In this document: in pieces, positions 46,723 through 60,953 of the stretch
Layout: the number at the start of each line of letters is the position of its first letter
How positions within the stretch are numbered: the stretch's first letter is position 1
From: Desulfofustis limnaeus
GTDB lineage: Bacteria; Desulfobacterota; Desulfobulbia; Desulfobulbales; Desulfocapsaceae
Assembly: GCF_023169885.1 (NCBI RefSeq)
Contig: NZ_AP025516.1
Span: forward strand, 1,798,001-1,862,000
Direction: 5' to 3'
Length of the DNA stretch: 64,000 nucleotides
Position numbers and translations under genes: made by a program
Notes under the pieces: model-generated
Told to the model about the DNA's origin: nothing
Database searches by the model: none
What the model saw: only the letters and a program-made list of their open reading frames with translations

Positions 46723-48144
46723 ATGGCCGGCCTGTTCAACGCCCTCAACGCTGCCCGCACCTCGCTCGAGGTCAACCAGAAATCGATCGAGATCGTCGGC
46801 AACAATATCTCCAACGTCAACACCGAGGGCTACTCGCGCCAAGTCGCCCAGCTGTCGCCCTACCCGGCCACCAATTTCGGCGATTTTTTCATCGGCCACG
46901 GGGTCAAGATCGACAACGTCCGGCGCGATCACGACGTCTTTCTGCAGGCCCAGTTGCAGGACAAATACATCGATTTCGGCTACGCCAACGGCAAGACCAG
47001 GACGCTCAACGAACTGGAACGGGCCTTCAATATCACCGAGGAAAACATCGCCACCAACATCGACCGGTATTTCGATGCCTGGCAGGAACTCTCCGCCTAT
47101 CCCAGCGATCTGGTGCTGCGCGACACGGTCATCCAGCGCGGCGAACTGCTGGCGGTGGACTTCAACAACACCGCCAACGAGCTGAACACCATCACCGAGA
47201 ACATCAACGATACCATCATCGCCAAGATCGAGGACATCAACGACAAGTTGAACGCCATCGCCGACCTCAACGAGCGTATCTTCAACATCGAAGTCCGCGG
47301 CCAGATGGCCAACAGCGCCCGCGACCAGCGCGACGTGCTGGTCAAGGACCTGGCCGAACAGCTCGGGGCGCTGACCTACGAGGACCGCAACGGCATGCTC
47401 AACCTGCAGCTGCCGGGCGGCCTGCCCCTGGTCCAGGGCAATAGCGCCATGGAACTGGAAGCCAACACCACCGGGGCCGATGTCACCCTGCGGCTGCACG
47501 CCGCCGGAGTGACCCGCGATCTCTCCACCAACACCCTGGGCGGTGAGATGCTCGGTTTGTTCACCATGCGCGACCAATTCATCCCCGAGCTTCAGGAAAA
47601 CCTCGACTACCTGGCCTGGAACCTGGCCGAGCAGGTCAACGCCCGACACCGGCTCGGCGCCGGGCTGGACTCGGTGGACGACCGTTCCTTCTTCAACGAC
47701 CTCACCCTCACCGTGCCACCGGCTGACTACCCTCACCAGAACGCTGCCCGCAACATCGCCGTGGTGCTCACCGATGCCGTCCAGGTAGCCGCCGCTCTGC
47801 CGCCCGGTGCGCTCGGAACCGTCGCTCCCGGTGACAACCGTAACGCCCTGCTCATGTCCAATATCGGCGAACAGTACCTGATCGACGGTATCGACAATTT
47901 CAACGCCTATTACGGCAAGATGACCTCACGGATCGGCATCGAGGCCAACCAGAACGACCTGGCCCTGTCCGGCGCCCAGGATGCCGTCGACCAGCTGGAG
48001 AACCTGCGCGACGGTTTCGTCGGCGTCTCGCTGGAAGAGGAAATGATCAGCCTGATCCAGTATCAGCGCGGTTTTCAGTCGTCGGCCAAGTTTCTCACCA
48101 CGGTCGACGAGTTGATGGAATCGCTGCTCACCATTAAACGCTGA
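46723..48144 (+). CDS. flgK: Hook-filament junction protein FlgK (HAP1)
   Basis: 473 residues. N-terminal LFNALNAARTSLEVNQKSIE and IVGNNISNVNTEGYSRQVAQ, the AWQELSAYPSDLVLRDTVIQ segment, and C-terminal LEEEMISLIQYQRGFQSSAK identify FlgK. First junction protein, capping the hook before flagellin assembly. Confidence 0.96.
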   Translation: MAGLFNALNAARTSLEVNQKSIEIVGNNISNVNTEGYSRQVAQLSPYPATNFGDFFIGHGVKIDNVRRDHDVFLQAQLQDKYIDFGYANGKTRTLNELERAFNITEENIATNIDRYFDAWQELSAYPSDLVLRDTVIQRGELLAVDFNNTANELNTITENINDTIIAKIEDINDKLNAIADLNERIFNIEVRGQMANSARDQRDVLVKDLAEQLGALTYEDRNGMLNLQLPGGLPLVQGNSAMELEANTTGADVTLRLHAAGVTRDLSTNTLGGEMLGLFTMRDQFIPELQENLDYLAWNLAEQVNARHRLGAGLDSVDDRSFFNDLTLTVPPADYPHQNAARNIAVVLTDAVQVAAALPPGALGTVAPGDNRNALLMSNIGEQYLIDGIDNFNAYYGKMTSRIGIEANQNDLALSGAQDAVDQLENLRDGFVGVSLEEEMISLIQYQRGFQSSAKFLTTVDELMESLLTIKR

Positions 48145-48170
48145 GCATCAGGCGGCACAAGAGGCGCACC

Positions 48171-49163
48171 ATGAAAGTCACCGAAAATTCCACCTACCGG
48201 CTGATGAACACCAACCTCAACCGGATCACCAACACCCTGCAGGATCTGCGCAACCAGGGGGCCAGCGGCCTGAAGTTGAACCAGCCGTCGGACGACCCGA
48301 CGGCCATCCGGCCGGTGCTGACCACGCGCACCCAGATCCGCCATACCGAGCGCTACCTGGAGACCATGGGGGTGACGCTGGACAAGATGCAGGCCACCGA
48401 CGGCCACCTGGAACACGTGGAGAACGTCATGCAGCGGGCCAAGGAGATCGCCATCAACGCGGTCAACAGCGGCCTCAGCGAGTCCGACCTGGCGACGCTG
48501 GCCGACGAGGTCGTCCAGCTGCGCGAAGAATTGCTCGATGCGGCCAACGCCATGATCGACGGCAAGTACATCTTTTCCGGCTACGCCGAGAACACCAAGC
48601 CGTTTGTCGCCAACCCCGCCTACGACCCGGCAACCTACGACCCGGCCGACCGCGCCACCTGGCCCTACCTCTACCAGGGCGACGCCAACCCGACCGAACT
48701 CGAGATCACCCCCGGCGAGTACCTGCAGGCCAACCTGACCGGCAACGACCTCTTCCTCGGCATTTCCAACGACAACTGGAACGGCGGCTCGATTGAGTCC
48801 GATCCCGGCCGGGTTGATCTGTTCTCGGTGCTGACCCGGCTGGAAGAGGCGATCCGCGCCGGCAACGTGGACGACCCGGCCGGGCCCGGCGGCGGCATCC
48901 AGGAGGCCATCGACAAGCTGGAGGTCGGCGCCGATCAGGAGCGGCGGCTGCGCAGCCGGCTCGGCAACCGCGCCACCCGCGTCGAAGCGGCCATCGATCA
49001 CCAGCAGACGGTGCTCGTCGACCTGGAACAGATCCTGTCACGCTACCAGGACGCCGACGCCATCGCCACCTTCAACGAGATCATCAAGCAGGAGACGGCC
49101 TTCCAGGCGGCGCTCAGTGTCACCTCGCGGGTCTCGCAGATCTCCATCCTCGATTATTTTTAA
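48171..49163 (+). CDS. flgL: Hook-filament junction protein FlgL (HAP3)
   Basis: 330 residues with flagellin-like termini: YRLMNTNLNRITNTLQDLRN, LKLNQPSDDPTAIRPVLTTR and C-terminal RVEAAIDHQQTVLVDLEQIL, QETAFQAALSVTSRVSQISI. The central region contains IDGKYIFSGYAENTKPFV, the FlgL hallmark. Distance to flgK 26 bp. Confidence 0.95.
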   Translation: MKVTENSTYRLMNTNLNRITNTLQDLRNQGASGLKLNQPSDDPTAIRPVLTTRTQIRHTERYLETMGVTLDKMQATDGHLEHVENVMQRAKEIAINAVNSGLSESDLATLADEVVQLREELLDAANAMIDGKYIFSGYAENTKPFVANPAYDPATYDPADRATWPYLYQGDANPTELEITPGEYLQANLTGNDLFLGISNDNWNGGSIESDPGRVDLFSVLTRLEEAIRAGNVDDPAGPGGGIQEAIDKLEVGADQERRLRSRLGNRATRVEAAIDHQQTVLVDLEQILSRYQDADAIATFNEIIKQETAFQAALSVTSRVSQISILDYF

Positions 49164-49180
49164 CCCGTGCCCTCGGTTCG

Positions 49181-49209
49181 TTGACAATGGTTCGGCAAAG
49201 GCATAAGAT
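49181..49209 (+). promoter_or_regulatory. Sigma-70-type promoter of csrA-fliW
   Basis: TTGACA, exactly 17 bases, TAAGAT, 64 bp before the csrA start; a near-consensus housekeeping promoter and the strongest one I see in the window. It separates csrA-fliW control from the sigma-28 genes on both sides. Confidence 0.78.
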
Positions 49210-49273
49210 TCAGCTGTCTGGCCGGATCATTCGTCGATGAGGCCCGTTCTGTCATTTCTGCGCGGAGAGTTTC

Positions 49274-49510
49274 ATGCTGGTTTTATCCAGAAAAGCCGGG
49301 GAAGGTTTTCTGATCGGTGACGACATCGTCGTCAAGGTGGTGGAAGTGAAAGGGGCGACGGTGCGCATCGGTATCGAGGCGCCCCAGGACCGAAAAATCT
49401 ACCGTCAGGAAGTCTACGAGAAGATCAAGGAACAAAACGTGGCCGCCTCCCATTGGGAGCAACTCGATCTCGACGCCTTGAGCGATCGCATCACGACCAG
49501 GAAAAAATGA
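49274..49510 (+). CDS. csrA: Carbon storage/translation regulator CsrA
   Basis: 78 residues with the whole CsrA fold: [40 protein letters not shown] and a C-terminal tail of ~20 residues longer than enteric CsrA. RNA-binding dimer that recognises GGA in hairpin loops. Together with FliW downstream it forms the partner switch that matches flagellin synthesis to export; the leader at 51882-52061 is a likely target. Ribosome binding site CGGAGAG. Confidence 0.96.
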
Positions 49511-49511
49511 T

Positions 49512-49958
49512 ATGGAATCGATAGAGACCCGTTTCGGCACCATCGAATATGAACCGGCCAACCTGCTCCACTTTCCGGCCGGGCTCATCGGCCTCCCCAC
49601 CCTGCATAATTTCGTGGTCATCCCGCCCAAGAAGGACGGCCCGATCTTCTGGATCCAGTCGGTGGACGAGCCTGACTATGCCTTCATCCTCACCGACCCG
49701 ACCAACTTTTTCCTCGATTACCGGGTGGTCCCCGACGATGCGGAGCGATCCACCCTGCATATCGACGGCGCGGATGAGTGTTTTGCCCTGAGCGTCGTCA
49801 CCGTCACCCCGGACCAGACCATCACCCTCAACCTGGCGGCGCCGATCCTGTTCGCCCCAAAGAGCAACCGGGCCATCCAGGTGATCCTGGAGCAGAGCGA
49901 CTACCAGACTAAAACGCCGCTGCCGGAGATCAAGCAGGAAGAAAAGACGACCGGCTGA
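49512..49958 (+). CDS. fliW: Flagellar assembly factor FliW
   Basis: 148 residues, 1 bp after csrA. FliW binds flagellin and, when free, sequesters CsrA. Typical segments: [47 protein letters not shown] and [20 protein letters not shown]. Immediately upstream of the first flagellin. Confidence 0.95.
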
Positions 49959-49987
49959 TCGAGCCGCCGGGTCCACCGCTCAAACGC

Positions 49988-50014
49988 TAAAGATTTGTCA
50001 GCCGGCGGCCGATA
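49988..50014 (+). promoter_or_regulatory. Sigma-28 promoter of the first flagellin
   Basis: TAAAGATT, twelve bases, GCCGATAC; TAAA-to-CCGATA distance 21. About 48 bp before ATG 50062. The short leader carries AGAGGA as ribosome binding site. Confidence 0.8.
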
Positions 50015-50061
50015 CGTGGGTTAAGCGTAACCATCAACCCTGCCCAACGAAGAGGACTCCC

Positions 50062-51456
50062 ATGGCCCTGACCATCAACACCAATATCGCCTCGCTCAAC
50101 GCCCAACGCAACCTCGGCAAGAGCCAGCTCGCCCTGGCCCAATCCATGCAGCGCCTGTCGTCCGGCCTGCGTATCAACAGCGCCAAGGACGACGCCGCCG
50201 GTCTCGCCATCTCCGACCGAATGACCGCCCAGATCAAGGGCATGAACCAGGCGGCGCGCAACGCCAACGACGGCATCTCCATGGCCCAGACCGCCGAGGG
50301 CGCCCTGCAGGAGTCCACCAACATCCTGCAGCGCATCCGTGAGCTGGCCGTCCAGTCGGCCAACGACACCAACAGCGACTCCGACCGCGCCTCGCTCAAC
50401 GATGAAGTCACCCAGCTCAAGGCGGAGCTGGACCGGATCGCCCGGACCACCGAGTTCAACGGCCGCAAGGTGATCGACGGAACGATGACCGAGGCCACCT
50501 TCCAGGTGGGCCCGAACGCCGGGGAGAACCAGACCATCTCCTTTTCCATCGACAGCGCCCTGGCCGAGGCGCTCAGCTACGACGGCACGGTGATCGAGGC
50601 CAACACCACGGCCACCGGCGCCTCCATCACCGATCCCACGGCCGTCGATCCGGCCACCATCGAGGTCAACGGCACCGCCCTGGAGGGTCCGTTTACCTCC
50701 GTTGAAGACATCGCCACGGCCATCAATACCGCCGCCGGCGCCACCGAGCCGATCGCCACCGCGGTGAATACGCAGTCACTGGCGTTTGCCGATCTAACCT
50801 CGACAGATGATGCGACCGCATCATATACCCTTGACATAGACGGCGACACGTTTACCATCACCGGCGGCGATGTCACTGCCGCTGCCGTCGCCGCTGCAAT
50901 CGATGCAGATGCCGGTTATACCGCATCGATTAACAGCGAGACAGGAGCAATCGACATTGCTCGGGTCACTGACGACGGTTCGCCCATGATCATTAGTGAA
51001 ACGCTGGTATCACTCACCGGCGCCGGTTTTGCCGACGGCACCTATCACGGCCAGATCAGCATCACCAGCGGCACCGAGGTCGTCCTCACCGGCACCGGCC
51101 TGGCCGCCGCCGGCCTCGATGCAGTCGGCAACGTCACCACCACCATCGATAACGTGTCGGTGGCCACCCGCGAGGATTCGATGATCGCCATCCAGTCGGT
51201 GGATGCGGCGCTGATGCAGATTGATTCCATCCGCGGCGGGCTCGGCGCGGTGCAGAACCGGTTCGAATCGACCATTGCCAACCTCAACAACGTAGCCGAG
51301 AACCTCTCCGCCGCCCGCTCCCGGATCCTCGATGCCGACATCGCCATGGAGACCTCGGCGATGACCAAGCAGAACATCCTGCAGCAGGCCGGCGTAGCCA
51401 TCCTCGCCCAGGCCAACCAGACCCCGCAACTGGCGCTGTCGCTGCTGCAGGGGTAG
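50062..51456 (+). CDS. fliC: Flagellin FliC, shorter paralogue
   Basis: 464 residues. The first ~145 ([39 protein letters not shown]) and last ~90 residues ([40 protein letters not shown]) form the D0/D1 core and are almost identical to the flagellin at 52062. The middle holds one small version of the module that is repeated in that protein, and 50760-51000 is less GC-rich. Stop is TAG. Confidence 0.96.
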
Positions 51457-51479
51457 GTACCAATGGTTAATTGTTAATC

Positions 51480-51770
51480 ATGAATCGGGACCAGGTACTC
51501 CAACGCCTGAGCGACTATAAAAAGAACTATTCCGATCACTATGGGATTGTTGCGCTTGGTGTATTCGGCTCCACTGCCCGCGGGAAGGCAGGAGGCCAGA
51601 GCGACGTGGATATCGTGGTGCGCCTCAAGAAGCCGGAACTCTTTCTTCTCGCCGGTTTGAAAGACGATCTGGAAAAAGTCCTCCACCAATCGATCGACAT
51701 TGTCGTCTATCGCGACACGATGAACCCTTTTTTGCGGAAAATGATTGACCGAGAAGCGTTTTATGTATGA
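51480..51770 (+). CDS. MNT-type minimal nucleotidyltransferase (antitoxin), orphan
   Basis: 96 residues from ATG 51480; a TTG at 51471 is less likely. Nucleotidyltransferase core GVFGSTARGKAGGQSDVDIV (GSxxRG plus DxD) and the strand SIDIVVYRDTMN match MntA-type antitoxins that modify HEPN toxins. It lies between two flagellin genes, in sense. The partner gene at 51763 is reduced to 11 codons. Looks like a remnant of an inserted MNT/HEPN module. Confidence 0.8.
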   Translation: MNRDQVLQRLSDYKKNYSDHYGIVALGVFGSTARGKAGGQSDVDIVVRLKKPELFLLAGLKDDLEKVLHQSIDIVVYRDTMNPFLRKMIDREAFYV

Positions 51771-51798
51771 CAAGGAACTTGACTGTTCTTTCATCTAA
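51763..51798 (+). pseudogene. Truncated HEPN toxin start (11 codons)
   Basis: ATG 51763 overlaps the end of the nucleotidyltransferase gene by 8 bp, the usual MNT-HEPN arrangement, and encodes MYDKELDCSFI before TAA. HEPN/DUF86 partners often begin MYD(K/R)EL. The rest of the toxin is absent; AT-rich sequence and the flagellin promoter follow directly. Confidence 0.55.
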
Positions 51799-51847
51799 TT
51801 GATTTTGTAGGGATTATAAAAATTTTTCGCCAATTACAATTTTTTCC

Positions 51848-51874
51848 TAAAGCATCTGTTGCCGGATGCCGACA
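51848..51874 (+). promoter_or_regulatory. Sigma-28 promoter of the second flagellin
   Basis: TAAAGCAT, twelve bases, GCCGACAA; the -10 core is CCGACA instead of CCGATA, spacing 21 as elsewhere. Places the start near 51882, giving a leader of about 180 nt. Confidence 0.72.
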
Positions 51875-51881
51875 AGAGACG

Positions 51882-52061
51882 GGAGGGAAGGAGTCCCTCG
51901 ACGATAAGGACAATCGGCACCAGGATGATCAACCATCAGCAAGGAGGTGAGACGCGACCAACACGACGCACGACGAGTAACACGAAGTACCAGATAATCT
52001 AAAACGTTGTACCACAAGGGCACGGACGCCCGAATCAACACCTTCACGGAGGAATCCTCAC
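51882..52061 (+). promoter_or_regulatory. GGA-rich flagellin leader with candidate CsrA-binding hairpins
   Basis: Nine GGA trinucleotides in ~180 nt. At the very 5' end GAGGGA-AGGAG-TCCCTC (51883-51899) is a perfect 6-bp stem with GGA in the loop. CAGGATG at 51922 matches the CsrA consensus core, AAGGAGGTGA at 51941 is a Shine-Dalgarno-like site with no start codon after it, and the true ribosome binding site lies in GAGGAATCCTC (52049-52059), which can fold on itself. No open frame of note. Confidence 0.6.
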
Positions 52062-54395
52062 ATGGCACTGACCATCAACACCAACGTAATGTCCCTCAAC
52101 GCCCAGCGGAACCTGGGTAAATCGCAGAACGCCCTGGCCAACTCCATGCAGCGCCTCTCATCCGGCCTGCGGATCAACTCGGCCAAGGACGACGCCGCCG
52201 GCCTGGCGATCTCCGATCGGATGACCGCCCAGATCCGCGGCCTCAACCAGGCGGCCCGGAACGCCAACGACGGCATCTCGCTGGCCCAGACCGCTGAAGG
52301 CGCCCTGCAGGAGAGTACCAACATCCTGCAGCGGATTCGTGAACTGGCCGTCCAGTCGGCCAACGACACCAACAGCGATTCCGACCGCGCGTCGCTCAAC
52401 GACGAGGTTGTCCAACTCAAGGCGGAGTTGGACCGGATCGCCGTTACCACCGAGTTCAACGGCCGCAAGGTCATCGACGGCAGCCTCAGGGATGCCACCT
52501 TCCAGGTCGGCGCCAATGCCGGCACCAACCAGACCATCGCCTTCTCCATCGACAGCGCCATCGGCTCCGAGCTGAGCCAGTTGGGCACGACGATTGAGGC
52601 ACCGAACGGGACGCCGGTTAGCGGTGCGAACATCACCGGACCACTGGAAGCAGATACCCTCACGGTCAACGGTGAGGCAGTAGCAGCAGCCGAGGGAGCA
52701 ACGGCTATTGCCGCTGCGATTAATGAAGCAGCTGGAGCAGAGATCGCCAGCATCCAAAATGTTCAGACGATTGATTTTGCTGCTATTAATCTTGGCATAG
52801 AGGTTGTCACCGCTTCAGAGGTAGAGGTTGGAGCTCCTGCAGAAGATGCCGTAGCAGCAGAGCAGACTTTTGATTTTGATGGTCTAACTCTTGCTGGAGG
52901 TGAATCAATTGCGTTTAGCATTGGAACAGAAACGTATACCTTTACCAATGGATCAGCAGGAGATGCCGATTTGACTGGTACCGATCTGGCCGATGCAATT
53001 GCAACTGATTTTTCATCCAACGGAGTTTCGGGTTTTGAAGCATCTGCAGACGGCGCAACCCTTACCATAAATCAAGCAGAAGGATCTGAAGCAGAGCTGT
53101 CCGCAATAACGACTACCTTTACGTATTTTGCTGAAGAGGTTACACTAGGCGTGGTTGGTACACCAGAGGTTCAGCATTTTGATTTTTCATCGATCACCAT
53201 TGAAGCGGGCGAATCAATCGTATTTTCTATTGGAGGTTCGGAACATACATTCACGAATGAAGAAGAAACCGCCATAACAGGAGATGAATTGGCTACTGCT
53301 GTTGCGAGGTTTCTCGATGACGAGACCATTACCAACTATTCATTCGCGGAAGGAACGGGCTTAAATGAGGGCAAGCTTATAATCACCGGGCCTGAATCAG
53401 ACGTAGATCCTGTAGAAGTGACTTTTGCTCGTTCGATTGGCACTATTGTCGAAGCCGGAAACGAAGCTAGCCCTGCAGAGCAAGCCTCCCAAACAATCGA
53501 TCTTGAAGGCGTAAGCATAGGTGCCGGAGAGACGATCACATTCTCAATTGGTGAAGCGTCATATGAATTCACCAATAACGGTGAATCGGCATTAACAGGA
53601 ACGGGTTTGGCAGCTGCGATTGCATCAGATTTTGCTACCAACGGGGTAGAAAACTATACCGCATCTGCAGACGAAGCCGTCCTGACGATAGCTCAAGAGT
53701 CCCCATTCGGAGCGGAAATTGATCTTATCACCGCCAGCTATGGCGGCTCAGAATACACGCTGAGCCTGGGCGAAACGGCGATCGATCTGACAGCAGCCAG
53801 TGCGGATGGAACGATTACCGCGGGTGAGGTCGCTGAAGCCATCAATACCGATGAGACCAACGGTTTCACCGCTGAAGTCAATGCCCAGGGGCAATTGGTA
53901 GTCACCCAGACCACCGCCACCGATTCTTTCGAGGTATCTGAAAGCGGCGCCCAGCGGTTTGCCGGTGAAACCGGTGAAGCCACGATGGCGGCACAGCTGG
54001 TTCTGGACAGCGAGTCCAACATCGTGTTCGAGGGAGAGGGAGTTGCGGCTATCGGCCTTGCCGACGTCGGCTACTCCACCACAACCATCGACCAGATCTC
54101 CGTAGCAAGCCGGGCGCAAGCCTGGACCGCCATCGCCTCTGTCGATGCGGCGCTGATGGATATCGACCGGATCCGCGGCGGGCTCGGTGCGGTGCAGAAC
54201 CGGTTCGAGTCGACGATTGCCAACCTCAACAACGTGGCCGAGAATCTGTCCGCGGCCCGTTCCCGGATCCTTGATGCGGACATCGCCATGGAGACCTCGG
54301 CGATGACCAAGAGCAACATCCTGCAGCAGGCCGGCGTGGCCATCCTCGCCCAGGCCAACCAGACGCCGCAGCTGGCGCTGTCGCTGCTCGGATAA
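52062..54395 (+). CDS. fliC: Flagellin FliC, long paralogue with tandem surface modules
   Basis: 777 residues. The D0/D1 termini match the 464-residue flagellin nearly residue for residue. The ~430-residue central region contains three tandem modules of ~100 residues starting near residues 268, 371 and 477: each begins QTFDFDGL-, QHFDFSSI- or QTIDLEGV-like, continues G(E)(S/T)I(A/V/T)FSIG and (H/Y)TFTN, then a helix such as [13 protein letters not shown]. 52740-53760 is clearly less GC-rich than the ends, suggesting a separate origin. Modules probably form surface-exposed D2/D3-type domains. Confidence 0.94.
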
Positions 54396-54403
54396 CCCCT
54401 GAC

Positions 54404-54437
54404 CCGAACCGGGGGAGCTGAGACTCTCCCGGTTCGG
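54404..54437 (+). terminator. Strong hairpin after the second flagellin
   Basis: CCGAACCGGGGGAG pairs with CTCTCCCGGTTCGG (14 bp, one G-U) around loop CTGAGA, 9 bp past the stop. No T-run follows, so it may stabilise the 3' end or act as a partial terminator before flaG. Confidence 0.55.
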
Positions 54438-54493
54438 CCCCCGCGGACCATGACGGACCGCGGTTGTCCCTAACTGGTTGCAAGGAGCGCATC

Positions 54494-54853
54494 ATGCCAG
54501 TCGAAGCATTACATATCACCGGTTCATCGCTGCAGCAGGTGCCGCGCCCCGCGGATACCATCAGCGCGGCCCGCCGGGATCAGAGCCGGGACCAGGCCGA
54601 CGGCGACAAGAGCACAGCAGCGTCGCCGCAGGCGGTCCAGCCGGAAGAATTGTTGAGCCAGATAAAATCGTTGACGGAAAACGGCCTCTACAGCGTCCGC
54701 TTCGAGAACAACCCGGACGTGGACGCACTGGTTGTCAAGATCGTCGACAGCACAACGAACGAGTTGATCCGCCAGGTGCCCGCCGAAGAGATTCTCGGCA
54801 TGAAGGCGAGCCTGGCCGAGCTGCGCGGCAATATCGTCGACACCGTTCGCTGA
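54494..54853 (+). CDS. flaG: FlaG-family protein
   Basis: 119 residues from ATG 54494 with AAGGAGCG upstream. The N-terminal ~60 residues are polar; the C-terminal half is the FlaG domain (VRFENNPDVDALVVKIVDST, TNELIRQVPAEEILGMKASL). FlaG limits filament length in several bacteria. Position between flagellin and fliD is typical. Confidence 0.88.
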   Translation: MPVEALHITGSSLQQVPRPADTISAARRDQSRDQADGDKSTAASPQAVQPEELLSQIKSLTENGLYSVRFENNPDVDALVVKIVDSTTNELIRQVPAEEILGMKASLAELRGNIVDTVR

Positions 54854-54912
54854 GCTGATTTTATCGCGCTTTTTTCGTACGTTAGTCGCCAAACCCTGCT
54901 GAGGAAGAGCCC

Positions 54913-56361
54913 ATGGCAGAGATCAGTTTCGGTGGCCTTGCCACCGGTTTGCCCACAGAAGACCTGGTATCGAGCCTGATGGCGATTGAGCGGCAACCGC
55001 TCAACCGCCTGGAGGCGAAAAAAGAGACCGAGACCAAGCGGCTCGAGGCCTACGCTCAGTTCAACACGCTGCTCGGTGGCCTACGCGATGCGGTGGCCAA
55101 CCTGAACCTGACGAGCGACGTACGCACCACCAGTGTCCGCCTCAGCTCAAACGAGACCATCAGCGCCTCCTCCAACGGTGCCGCCACCGGCAGCTACGAT
55201 ATCGCCGTGGCCCAGCTCGCCCAGGTGCAAAAAACCGTCACCGCCGGTTACAGCTCGCGCACCGCCGCGGTCTTCGGCAGCGGCACCTTTGCGATCAACA
55301 ACGTCGCGGTGCAGATCGACAGCACCAATAACTCGCTAGACGGTCTGATGGGCGCGATCAACAGCGTCTCGGCGCAGACCGGGGTGACCGCATCGATCAT
55401 CAACGACGGGTCGACCAGCGACAATTTTCACCTGGTACTCACCGGCAAGGACGCGGCCACCTCATTCTCGCTGACCTATAACCTGCAGGACGGCCAGGGC
55501 GCACCGATCGCCATCGACGCCACCCATGTTCGCGCCGCGCAGCAGGCCGTTGTCTATGTAGACGGCATCGAGGTGGTGGCCAATACCAATACGCTGACCG
55601 GCGTGATCGCCGGGGTGACGCTTAATCTCAACCAGACCAGTGCAATCGTTACGCCGGGGGATGGCCAGACGCCGCCCGTCTATGCGACCACGAATCTCAC
55701 CGTTGAGGCGGACACCGGGGCGCTCAAGGAAAAGGTGGGCGAGTTCGTCACCGCCTACAACAAGATCATGGAGTGGATCGTTGCCGGTTATGAGGTCGGC
55801 GGCAGGAACCAGCAGACTGGCGATGCGGCGGACGGCGATGAGGCCAAGGACCAGCCGCTGAGCGACCTGCTCCGCGGTGATGCGACCATCAACAAGATCA
55901 AGCGCAGCCTCCAGTCACTGCTCAGTACCGGCGTGGACAGCGGCAGCTCGCTGCAGATCCTCGCCGAGATCGGCATCACCACCCGCCAGGACGGGACGCT
56001 CAACCTCAACGCCTCCAAGCTCGACGATACGCTGGCCACGAAATTCGACGACGTGGTCGGCCTGCTCGCCGGGCAGGGTTCGCTGGACGGCGTGATGAAG
56101 CGGTTCAACACCTACCTGCGCGATGTCACGTCGACCACGAGCGGCATGTACGCCGACAAGCGGGCCCGTTACACCGAGGCCGTCAAGCGCTTTGATCAGC
56201 AGATCGACCAGAAGGAAGCCCTGATGGGCAAGATCGAGGAGCGGATCCGCAACCAGTTCACGTCGCTGGAGTTGCTGGTCAGCAATCTCAACGCCCAGAG
56301 CAACTATCTCACCCAGCAGATGGACATCATCGCCAACATGATGACCAAAGGACGAAAATAA
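54913..56361 (+). CDS. fliD: Filament cap protein FliD (HAP2)
   Basis: 482 residues, ribosome binding site GAGGAAG. N-terminal ISFGGLATGLPTEDLVSSLM and AIERQPLNRLEAKKETETKR, middle FHLVLTGKDAATSFSL, and C-terminal domain (LQILAEIGITTRQDGTLNLN, RFDQQIDQKEALMGKIEERI) ending in a coiled coil. Caps the filament during flagellin polymerisation. Overlaps fliS by 1 bp. Confidence 0.96.
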   Translation: MAEISFGGLATGLPTEDLVSSLMAIERQPLNRLEAKKETETKRLEAYAQFNTLLGGLRDAVANLNLTSDVRTTSVRLSSNETISASSNGAATGSYDIAVAQLAQVQKTVTAGYSSRTAAVFGSGTFAINNVAVQIDSTNNSLDGLMGAINSVSAQTGVTASIINDGSTSDNFHLVLTGKDAATSFSLTYNLQDGQGAPIAIDATHVRAAQQAVVYVDGIEVVANTNTLTGVIAGVTLNLNQTSAIVTPGDGQTPPVYATTNLTVEADTGALKEKVGEFVTAYNKIMEWIVAGYEVGGRNQQTGDAADGDEAKDQPLSDLLRGDATINKIKRSLQSLLSTGVDSGSSLQILAEIGITTRQDGTLNLNASKLDDTLATKFDDVVGLLAGQGSLDGVMKRFNTYLRDVTSTTSGMYADKRARYTEAVKRFDQQIDQKEALMGKIEERIRNQFTSLELLVSNLNAQSNYLTQQMDIIANMMTKGRK

Positions 56362-57261: not shown

Positions 57262-57278
57262 GTGCAACGGGGTTAAAA

Positions 57279-57340
57279 GGGGGTCAGGTCTTGTCTTTTG
57301 ACATTTGAACTGCAATGTCAAAAGACAAGACCTGACCCCC
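57279..57340. repeat. Palindromic REP-like repeat, copy 1
   Basis: Perfect 27-bp inverted repeat (57279-57305 with 57314-57340) around loop TGAACTGC. The outer arm GGGGTCAGGTCTTG is shared by all copies; variable arm base 17 (numbered from the first of five G) is C, paired with G. Confidence 0.9.
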
Positions 57341-57378: not shown

Positions 57379-57723
57379 ATGAAATCCGTCGATCAATGGC
57401 TGCGGGAATCGATCACCAGCTACCACCGGCTGGCCGCCGAGGCCGAACTGCTCGACGAACACCTCCGTGATCTCTCCGTCGCCGATATCAACCGCCGCTG
57501 CGCGCGGCTGGATGACCAGTGCCGGGACCTGCTCGCCCACGACGAGAAACTCCACCAGATACTGACCTTCGTCGGCAGCGAGGTCCTCGGCAACCCGCTG
57601 CTCTGCGCCTACCAGCAGGCCCTGACGACCGCCATCGAGGTCATCGACCGGGTGGCGGTAACTGCCACCCGCCAAAAACACCAGCTGGAAAACTATAAAA
57701 GGGGGTCAGGTCTTGTTTTTTGA
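57379..57723 (+). CDS. Small helical protein of unknown function, 3' end inside a palindromic repeat
   Basis: 114 residues, ribosome binding site CGGAGA. Helical throughout (SYHRLAAEAELLDEHLRDLS, CARLDDQCRDLLAHDEKLHQ). The last residues, RGSGLVF, are encoded by the left arm of palindromic repeat copy 2, whose TGA supplies the stop, so the original C-terminus has probably been replaced. Function not recognised; its position after the fliS block suggests a late flagellar or export role. Confidence 0.6.
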   Translation: MKSVDQWLRESITSYHRLAAEAELLDEHLRDLSVADINRRCARLDDQCRDLLAHDEKLHQILTFVGSEVLGNPLLCAYQQALTTAIEVIDRVAVTATRQKHQLENYKRGSGLVF

Positions 57724-57761
57724 CATTTGAACTACAATGCCAAAAGACAAGACCTGACCCC
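57701..57761. repeat. Palindromic REP-like repeat, copy 2
   Basis: Arms 57701-57727 and 57736-57761 around loop TGAACTAC; one A-C mismatch and one G-U pair, so slightly decayed. Its left arm forms the end of the gene at 57379 and its right arm begins the duplicated segment that carries the first PilZ-type gene. Confidence 0.88.
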
Positions 57762-57816: not shown

Positions 57817-57903
57817 CCGTTGCATCGTGCCGGTTCCAATGGACAATCACGGCACCAGACGAGAGTAGCAGGACTGTGAACCTCGACCTCGAGCAAGCCT
57901 AAC

Positions 57904-58437
57904 ATGACCGTATCGCCAGACATCCTCAACGATGTTCCGGACGCCAAACCGGTTCGGATCTTTCTGCCCATTGCCGGGAGCAAGGAGCGCTTTCGGATCG
58001 GCGGGATCTACAAGAAAACCGAGCCGCCCCGGTTCAACCTGCTGTTTAAGCCGGGGGTACTGCCGGTGGATGAGCTTGATACCGTTCAGCCGTGCCTGAT
58101 CATCATCGATATGGGGGGGCCCACGGTGTCGGTGGAGGCGATGATCACCACGGCCTCGGCGCAGGTGCTCGAGATGATTGTTCAGAAGTCGATCTCCCAT
58201 GACCAGATGCGCGAGTTCTTCCGGGTCGATGCCGCCACCGAGGTGATCGGCACCTCGTTTAAGCCGGAGCTGTTCGGGAAAAGCGATGCAACATGGTCGA
58301 TGCAGGGCACGACGATCGATATCAGCGGCAGCGGTATCCTCGCCTCGTTTCCCAAGAAGGTGCCGATGGACGAGCCGATCCGACTGGCCATCACCCTGCC
58401 CACCGCGGGCGCGCTGCCGACGCGATCTGCTCCGTAA
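57904..58437 (+). CDS. PilZ/YcgR-type c-di-GMP protein, C-terminally truncated paralogue
   Basis: 177 residues, about 70% similar by eye to the gene at 60261 over its first 165 residues. N-terminal YcgR-like domain, then the c-di-GMP-binding RxxxR (REFFRVDA) and D-x-S-x-x-G (DISGSG) motifs of PilZ. After ITLPT the sequence diverges and stops 12 residues later, losing the last PilZ strands and helix (~50 residues) just before palindromic repeat copy 3. Likely non-functional or ligand-binding impaired. Confidence 0.75.
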   Translation: MTVSPDILNDVPDAKPVRIFLPIAGSKERFRIGGIYKKTEPPRFNLLFKPGVLPVDELDTVQPCLIIIDMGGPTVSVEAMITTASAQVLEMIVQKSISHDQMREFFRVDAATEVIGTSFKPELFGKSDATWSMQGTTIDISGSGILASFPKKVPMDEPIRLAITLPTAGALPTRSAP

Positions 58438-58440
58438 GTC

Positions 58441-58494
58441 GGGGTCAGGTCTTGTATTTTGACATTTGTAATGAAATGTCAAAATACAAGACCT
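58441..58494. repeat. Palindromic REP-like repeat, copy 3, split by IS110
   Basis: Left arm 58441-58467 and right arm 58474-58494 pair perfectly; arm base T-A-T variant (TTGTATTTT / AAAATACAA) is compensated on both sides. The right arm ends at GACCT and the missing GACCCC continues beyond the IS110 element at 60119 (GACCTGACCCC). Confidence 0.85.
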
Positions 58495-58509
58495 GATAAT
58501 CATCTAAAA

Positions 58510-60191: not shown

Positions 60192-60260
60192 CCTTGCCAT
60201 CGTACCGGTACCAATGGATAATTGTCCCAGGAAGTCACTCCACCTTCATGCGAGATCGCC

Positions 60261-60953
60261 ATGACAGCATCGCCTGACATCCTCTCCGACGTCCCGGACG
60301 CCAAACCGGTTCGGGTCTTTCTGCCCATCCAGGGAAGCAAGGAGCGCTACCGGATCAGCGGCGTCTATCAGAAGAGCGAGGCGCCGCGCTTCAACCTGCT
60401 CTTTGCGCCGGGGATCCTGCCCGTCGATGCGCTCGACCTGCACCAGAGCTGTTTGATCATCATCGACATGGGCGGACCCAATGTCTCGGTGGAGGCGAAG
60501 ATCACCGGCACCCACGAGCGGAAGCTGGAGATGATCCTGCAGAAATCGATCAGCCACGACCAGATGCGGGAATTCTTCCGAGTCGACGCGGCGGCTCGGG
60601 TGATCAGCTCGTCCTTCCAGCCGCAACTCTACGGCAAGGATCGAGAACCGTGGACGATGCAGGGCACCACCATCGACATCAGCGGCAGCGGCATCCTCGC
60701 CTCGTTTCCCGAAAAGGTGCCGATGGACGAGCCGATTCGTCTCGAGATCACTTTGCCCACCGAGCCGCCCGAGATTGTCAGGGTGCTGGCCCACCCGGTG
60801 CGGGCGGTGCAGATCGACGACGACCGCTGGGAGGTGGCCTTCCATTTCGACGACATCTCGATTGAGGACCGGGACAAGATCATCGGCTGCTGCCTGGTCA
60901 TCCAGCGCCGCTTGCTGCGCCTCAAGGTGCCGGTTCCCAATTCGGCCGCGTAA
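60261..60953 (+). CDS. PilZ/YcgR-type c-di-GMP protein (full-length paralogue)
   Basis: 230 residues from ATG 60261, chosen because it aligns exactly with the start of the paralogue at 57904 (ATG 60222 would add 13 unmatched residues). N-terminal YcgR-like domain (~1-110), PilZ domain with REFFRVDA and DISGSG, then complete C-terminal strands (VRAVQIDDDRWEVAFHFDDI, IQRRLLRLKV). YcgR proteins bound to c-di-GMP brake the flagellar motor; this role is inferred from family and neighbourhood. Confidence 0.82.
   Translation: MTASPDILSDVPDAKPVRVFLPIQGSKERYRISGVYQKSEAPRFNLLFAPGILPVDALDLHQSCLIIIDMGGPNVSVEAKITGTHERKLEMILQKSISHDQMREFFRVDAAARVISSSFQPQLYGKDREPWTMQGTTIDISGSGILASFPEKVPMDEPIRLEITLPTEPPEIVRVLAHPVRAVQIDDDRWEVAFHFDDISIEDRDKIIGCCLVIQRRLLRLKVPVPNSAA

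Follow-up and report, generated by a model that had tools for sequence, protein, structure and literature searches.

The locus described here raises the question of how two closely similar flagellins, which are encoded just downstream of csrA and fliW, are regulated, and what role is played by the long leader that precedes the second of them. CsrA and FliW are known to control flagellin in B. subtilis, C. jejuni and C. difficile. Our analysis of a stretch of 64,000 nucleotides from Desulfofustis limnaeus (the window) suggests that the leader of the second flagellin (F2) is likely a CsrA-controlled translational switch of the kind described for hag and flaA, in which an orphan Shine-Dalgarno (SD) sequence would act as a dock for the 30S subunit, and that this form is common to many flagellins of the phylum.

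The genome comprises 4.23 Mb in one contig. In the locus, whose features are listed in Table 1, flgL is followed by csrA, fliW, the F1 flagellin, a small nucleotidyltransferase and the F2 flagellin, with named flagellin relatives found in Desulfobulbaceae, Desulfocapsa and Desulfopila. The location of csrA and fliW just upstream of the flagellins, which had been claimed in an earlier note on this DNA, is borne out by the protein family matches. The transcript starts of F1 and F2 are predicted from promoter motifs resembling the sigma28 consensus. For the small nucleotidyltransferase (PF01909, 51474-51770), no adjacent partner gene is listed on the plus strand up to F2.

Table 1. Features of the flagellin locus in coordinates of the window; promoters and 5' ends are predictions of a motif scan.
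Feature	Position	Strand	Remarks
csrA	49274-49510	+	Match to PF02599 well above cut-off, the sole one in the genome
fliW	49512-49958	+	Match to PF02623 well above cut-off, the sole one in the genome
F1 promoter and leader of about 45 nt	49988-50061	+	Sigma28-type motifs TAAAG (49988-49992) and GCCGATAC (50008-50015); predicted 5' end near 50017; one GGA; neither conserved leader type
F1 flagellin	50062-51456	+	464 amino acids; N-terminal 150 columns 91% identical to F2
F2 promoter	51848-51875	+	Sigma28-type motifs TAAAG (51848-51852) and GCCGACAA (51868-51875), 15 nt apart; predicted 5' end near 51882
6-bp stem with AGGAG loop	51883-51899	+	Located at the predicted 5' end; candidate for an additional CsrA site; not seen as common to relatives
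4-bp stem with AAGGACA loop	51902-51916	+	Candidate extra CsrA site; not seen as common to relatives
Orphan SD AAGGAGGTGA	51941-51950	+	Exact complement of the presumed anti-SD core; no start codon at SD spacing
Conserved CsrA-type hairpin GGGC-ACGGAC-GCCC	52018-52031	+	GGA in six-base loop
TTC-ACGGAG-GAA	52043-52054	+	GGA loop over the true SD (GGAGG, 52048-52052); stem of 3 bp here, 5-6 bp in many relatives
F2 flagellin	52062-54395	+	777 amino acids

The proposal of a CsrA/FliW switch had initially been based on the abundance of GGA motifs in the F2 leader (51882-52061), which indeed contains nine of them (at 51882, 51886, 51890, 51908, 51923, 51943, 52024, 52048 and 52051), and on the short leader of F1 (50017-50061), which as claimed holds a single one (at 50054). 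The bare count in the F2 leader is only mildly unusual. It compares to 4.1 in plain shuffles, of which 0.9% reach nine, and to 6.4 in shuffles that preserve dinucleotides, of which 8.9% do so, while nine or more are found in 0.25% of 180-nt segments on the plus and in 1.0% on the minus strand. In light of its weakness against the dinucleotide shuffles, we have rejected the GGA count as main evidence. Stronger evidence is provided by looped motifs: three GGA reside in loops closed by stems of 4 bp or more, compared to a shuffle mean of 0.31 (0.3% of shuffles reach three), although this number is also reached in 1.4% and 1.8% of 182-nt segments on the two strands. As a whole, the leader folds no better than its own shuffles (z -0.27). 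The perfect 6-bp stem at the 5' end, formed by pairing of 51883-51888 with 51894-51899, exists, but its loop contains the third GGA and not the first, as had been stated, with the second located within the stem itself. Similarly, a GGA is found in a CAGGATG core (51921-51927), and the ribosome site of F2 contains the sequence GAGGAATCCTC (52049-52059). None of the features that had been emphasized, namely the number of GGA motifs, the 5' stem, CAGGATG and the self-complementarity of the ribosome site, was found to be common to the aligned relatives.

Common to the relatives are instead three elements, namely the orphan SD, the hairpin (52018-52031) and a short GGA loop at the SD. Neither the orphan SD nor the hairpin is mentioned in the earlier note. 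The anatomy of these leaders and its conservation are directly observed: a sigma28-type promoter, where found, is followed by the orphan SD, the hairpin GGGC-AAGGAT-GCCC or a variant of it, and the true SD with its GGA. Since flagellin genes were collected by protein family, their leaders were sampled regardless of their own sequence. Of 62 genes whose Flagellin_N match reached 125 bits or more, one was unreadable at a contig end, which leaves 61. The hairpin leader precedes 41 of these 61 flagellin-like genes of 39 genomes, with 37 genomes represented and F2 among them, whereas a second conserved leader (class B) is found in ten, and neither type in another ten, which comprise F1 of the window and nine divergent flagellin-like genes. 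Two of these nine (L276 and L284) have a GGA-loop stem by rule and contain no orphan SD matching at nine of ten positions.

The stem of the hairpin covaries in 40 aligned leaders, with a value of 0.192 compared to 0.071 in shuffled and 0.036-0.077 in slid alignments, although in rows that were chosen for the hairpin. Of the 44 leaders selected on this basis, 40 entered the alignment and four did not: two copies inside the operon of L040, the locus L096 from Nitrospira and, in L114, the second gene. The 44 also include isolated loci beyond the family (for example L038, L044, L058, L096 and L101). The Nitrospira flagellin of L096 carries a similar GGA-loop hairpin (with an AAGGAC loop) and a GGGGG stretch upstream. 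In 100 leaders, the spacing between hairpin and true SD ranges from 20 to 55 nt, with 56 of them at 20-27 nt. The 24 nt between the respective GGA motifs in the F2 leader fall inside the range of 10-63 nt that can be bridged by one CsrA dimer according to the accessible text of a study on CsrA (PMC7652899). The hairpin loop and stem also agree with the consensus obtained by SELEX and with the usual loop length of six bases that this text describes. A search of Rfam with the region 48000-56000 of the window and ten loci of relatives produced, among matches up to E 1, none that reaches the gathering score of its family, and none close to the leaders that exceeded chance.

The same leader is recovered by a covariance model built from its last 73 nt, which does not include the orphan SD. 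In its own genome, the F2 leader is the only convincing match (E 1e-13), with the next matches at E 0.002 and weaker, of which nine (L153-L161) precede no flagellin. Matches at E 0.01 or better are found in 167 of 297 genomes of the phylum, which is not a verified count since the inspected matches stop at about E 2e-6. Among the best 70 matches outside the own genome, one was left out for its location at a contig end and all 69 that were fetched precede a flagellin, each ending at an ATG whose protein product matches a profile of flagellin N-termini with E 6e-14 or better. Four of the 69 are training sequences, whose exclusion leaves 65 leaders for the counts of the orphan SD described below. 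A search of plasmids using the leader gave no match.

The company of csrA and fliW with flagellin is equally apparent. Among 58 relatives, Flagellin_N is matched in 43, FliW in 40 and CsrA in 38, and the 15 without a flagellin match contain neither csrA nor fliW, thus illustrating an association of CsrA with flagella in this order. The leader is missing in G042, the one genome where a divergent flagellin occurs in the absence of both CsrA and FliW, and likewise in G027, where both proteins are present. Several relatives, such as G005, G006, G014 and G015, encode two FliW proteins, of which the second is more divergent and located far away; the genome of the window has one.

A tree of 43 N-termini places F1 and F2 next to each other (99/93) among flagellins with hairpin leader. 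Together with the high identity of their N-termini, this grouping suggests that F1 is a paralogue in which the switch leader was lost or never present. The earlier assignment of a CsrA/FliW switch to F2 and not to F1 is thus supported in its outline, as F2 has the conserved leader with hairpin and SD, F1 has neither type, and csrA and fliW adjoin; the weight given to the features then stressed is not supported, since these were not found to be the common ones. As a close paralogue without the leader, F1 should escape the switch, and both genes form a natural pair with and without it. We have also considered F1 as class B flagellin, which we rejected in light of its grouping with F2 and the lack of class B blocks, although gene conversion could blur this relationship. 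Class B leaders were found for ten genes in ten relatives and in three named contigs (L112, L115, L116, L119, L123, L125, L128, L130, L135, L015, L034, L035 and L032). They are characterized by the blocks CTGCGAG, GTTTG and GACGCC and lack GGA sites apart from, in most cases, one at the SD, with a few showing GCGAGGA. Where the upstream gene was read, they are located behind fliW. Class B leaders have no match in Rfam, and their interpretation as structured RNA was rejected with a consensus energy of only -0.4 kcal/mol.

A further element of the hairpin leader is the orphan SD. Its pairing was evaluated with a presumed anti-SD sequence, as the 3' end of the 16S rRNA was not found in this genome. 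In the 44 hairpin leaders of relatives, 37 match the element at eight or more of ten positions (shuffles 10%) and 29 at nine or more (shuffles 1.0%). Correspondingly, 44 of the 65 phylum leaders outside the training set match AAGGAGGTGA at eight or more positions between -65 and -170 (shuffles 12%) and 28 at nine or more (shuffles 0.9%). For comparison, eight positions are reached in one of 16 other leaders of the phylum and in four of 79 leaders of other phyla (predominantly Gamma- and Betaproteobacteria), where none reaches nine. With the same presumed anti-SD, predicted pairing is stronger for the orphan than for the true SD in the window (-17.3 vs -9.7 kcal/mol), in relatives (-15.5 vs -10.2 kcal/mol) and in phylum matches (-13.8 vs -11.3 kcal/mol), with the orphan SD outpairing the true SD in 93% of leaders of relatives and 82% of phylum leaders. 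In class B leaders and other phyla, upstream pairing is near that of shuffles, with class B slightly different (p 0.003).

A promoter-like motif was recognized by the pattern used in 46 of 81 leaders with orphan SD and not in the remaining 35. In 30 of these 46, the orphan SD is located 18-31 nt from the predicted transcript start, unlike in the window, where the distance of about 59 nt results from additional sequence at the 5' end containing the 6-bp and 4-bp stems (Table 1). The distance to the hairpin ranges from about 45 to 129 nt with a median of about 70. Structure prediction gives no indication that the orphan SD is particularly open (unpaired 0.48, compared to a leader mean of 0.54 and 0.59 for the true SD), and in the minimum-energy fold of the F2 leader it pairs with CACCUU before the true SD. 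The possibility that it forms one half of a conserved cis helix was rejected, since predicted partners are scattered across the leader. In a three-flagellin operon (L040), the two inner genes contain hairpin and SD but no orphan SD, which, in this one case, fits a role tied to the 5' part of the message. When one mismatch at most is allowed, the element occurs 127 times in the own genome and its reversed pattern 74 times; an inspection of six of these loci has given no clear answer.

The described properties have to be weighed against other explanations. That the leader would be rich in GGA by composition only, unbound by CsrA, as might be assumed from a count that is not significant against dinucleotide shuffles, appears very improbable in light of a conserved and covarying hairpin with a CsrA core, which among the inspected matches precedes only flagellins and which is found in genomes with csrA and fliW. 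We likewise consider it very improbable that the orphan SD would start a short leader peptide whose translation controls F2. As a perfect SD the element would be suited for this purpose, and a start codon is found 3-12 nt behind its GGAGG in 15 of 81 leaders (5 of 37 and 10 of 44), but it is absent in the other 66, there is none at that spacing in the window, and the bases behind the element are not conserved. With the start codon not conserved, the leader peptide was rejected.

Multi-site CsrA targets are common, and the orphan SD might constitute a third site, with two dimers occupying the leader and no involvement of the ribosome at this position. This reading is consistent with the AAGGA contained in the element, a CsrA-type core, and with the further GGA loops in the window leader. 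We nevertheless find it unlikely, since conservation spans the anti-SD complement including its GTG(A), which would not be needed by CsrA, and fades behind it, and since no conserved hairpin partner is seen around the element. The pattern of substitutions points in the same direction: the A of the orphan GGAGG is only replaced by G (5 of 60), which retains a wobble pair with the anti-SD while destroying the GGA core of CsrA sites, whereas hairpin loops contain GGA in 95, TGA in two and GGG in none of 100 cases (Fisher p 0.007), in a comparison where the 44 relatives were preselected for the loop GGA, the 65 phylum matches originate from a model favouring it, and p-values are loose due to the mutual dependence of the leaders. 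According to the accessible text, the change of GGA to GGG has abolished CsrA binding in C. jejuni (PMC4894983). Somewhat unlikely, in our view, is a role of the orphan SD as a mere stabiliser, where a bound 30S subunit would shield the 5' part of the untranslated message from nucleases without a function in initiation. Such a role is described for the STAB-SD of B. thuringiensis cry3A, a non-initiating SD near the 5' end that pairs with 16S rRNA and blocks RNase J1 (PMC4113751, accessible parts). It would fit the predicted position at 18-31 nt from the 5' end in most leaders with a promoter motif, the complementarity of a non-initiating SD to the presumed 16S rRNA sequence and the presence of RNase E/G and RNase Y in 19 of 19 relatives. 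Against it speak the distance of about 59 nt in the window and the lack of RNase J, which is found above the TIGR00649 cut-off in none of 58 relatives, with only remote matches detected, so that another nuclease would have to be meant. A roadblock for RNase J was rejected for this reason.

We thus favour an interpretation where the switch and the dock act on the same message. By analogy to characterized systems, a CsrA dimer very probably covers the hairpin and the SD of F2, with FliW acting as its antagonist. The dimer would connect the hairpin GGA to that at the SD and thereby block access of ribosomes until, as suggested by B. subtilis and C. jejuni, the export of flagellin liberates FliW, which would remove CsrA and permit translation of F2. 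About 70-110 nt upstream of the switch, a 30S subunit would dock at the orphan SD, where it could serve as standby for quick initiation after the departure of CsrA, as cover for the 5' part of the untranslated message, or both. We consider it somewhat probable that the orphan SD binds the 30S subunit, while on whether such docking matters for expression we lean slightly towards the negative. Ribosomes may wait on the F2 message during repression. As a tentative generalization, in which we place less trust than in its parts, the flagellin message of the phylum might combine a strong 30S dock without start codon near its 5' end with a CsrA clamp on a weaker true SD, so that a parked ribosome would allow an immediate start once FliW frees the message and keep the repressed message whole.

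The relationship to characterized systems emphasizes both common and distinct features. In C. jejuni, the flaA leader contains two GGA loops, the second located over the ribosome site, with compensatory changes and antagonism by FliW, and flaB binds CsrA more weakly than flaA (PMC4894983, as far as its accessible text describes). The F2 leader shares the two loops with the second at the SD, compensatory changes are likewise seen in its hairpin, and F1 and F2 parallel the pair of flaB and flaA, but its length of about 180 nt with an orphan SD upstream of the switch distinguishes it from the 45-nt leader of flaA. Similarly, the hag leader of B. subtilis contains two CsrA sites, one over the SD, and FliW antagonises CsrA without competing for RNA (PMC7652899 and PMC6529632, accessible parts). 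Two sites with one over the SD are also predicted for F2, whereas for hag, which was compared by description only, the accessible text mentions no orphan SD. With the STAB-SD of cry3A, the element shares the non-initiating location in a leader and the ability to pair with 16S rRNA, but here it is joined to a CsrA switch and RNase J was not found above cut-off. Within the phylum in a broad sense, FliW acts on CsrA in Geobacter sulfurreducens, where direct binding to mRNA is described as not yet validated, the role of FliC as open, and no flagellin leader is mentioned in the accessible text (PMC13407953).

As late as 2026, a direct target of CsrA in the phylum was described as unvalidated (PMC13407953, accessible part), and the leader names a candidate in many genomes. 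Neither a CsrA-controlled flagellin leader nor an orphan SD is described for the phylum in the accessible literature, which largely excludes subscription papers and is no proof of absence. Stronger than the true SD and common in these leaders, the orphan SD constitutes a conserved element that the CsrA model does not explain and which would bear on how repressed but needed messages stay ready.

Further downstream, the window contains an IS110-type transposase (PF02371 and PF01548, 58587-59627), which is preceded by three near-palindromic repeats of 66 nt (57274-57339, 57696-57761 and 58435-58500) and flanked by a repeat of 177 nt with 81% identity (57903-58079 and 60260-60436) that resembles a gene duplication.
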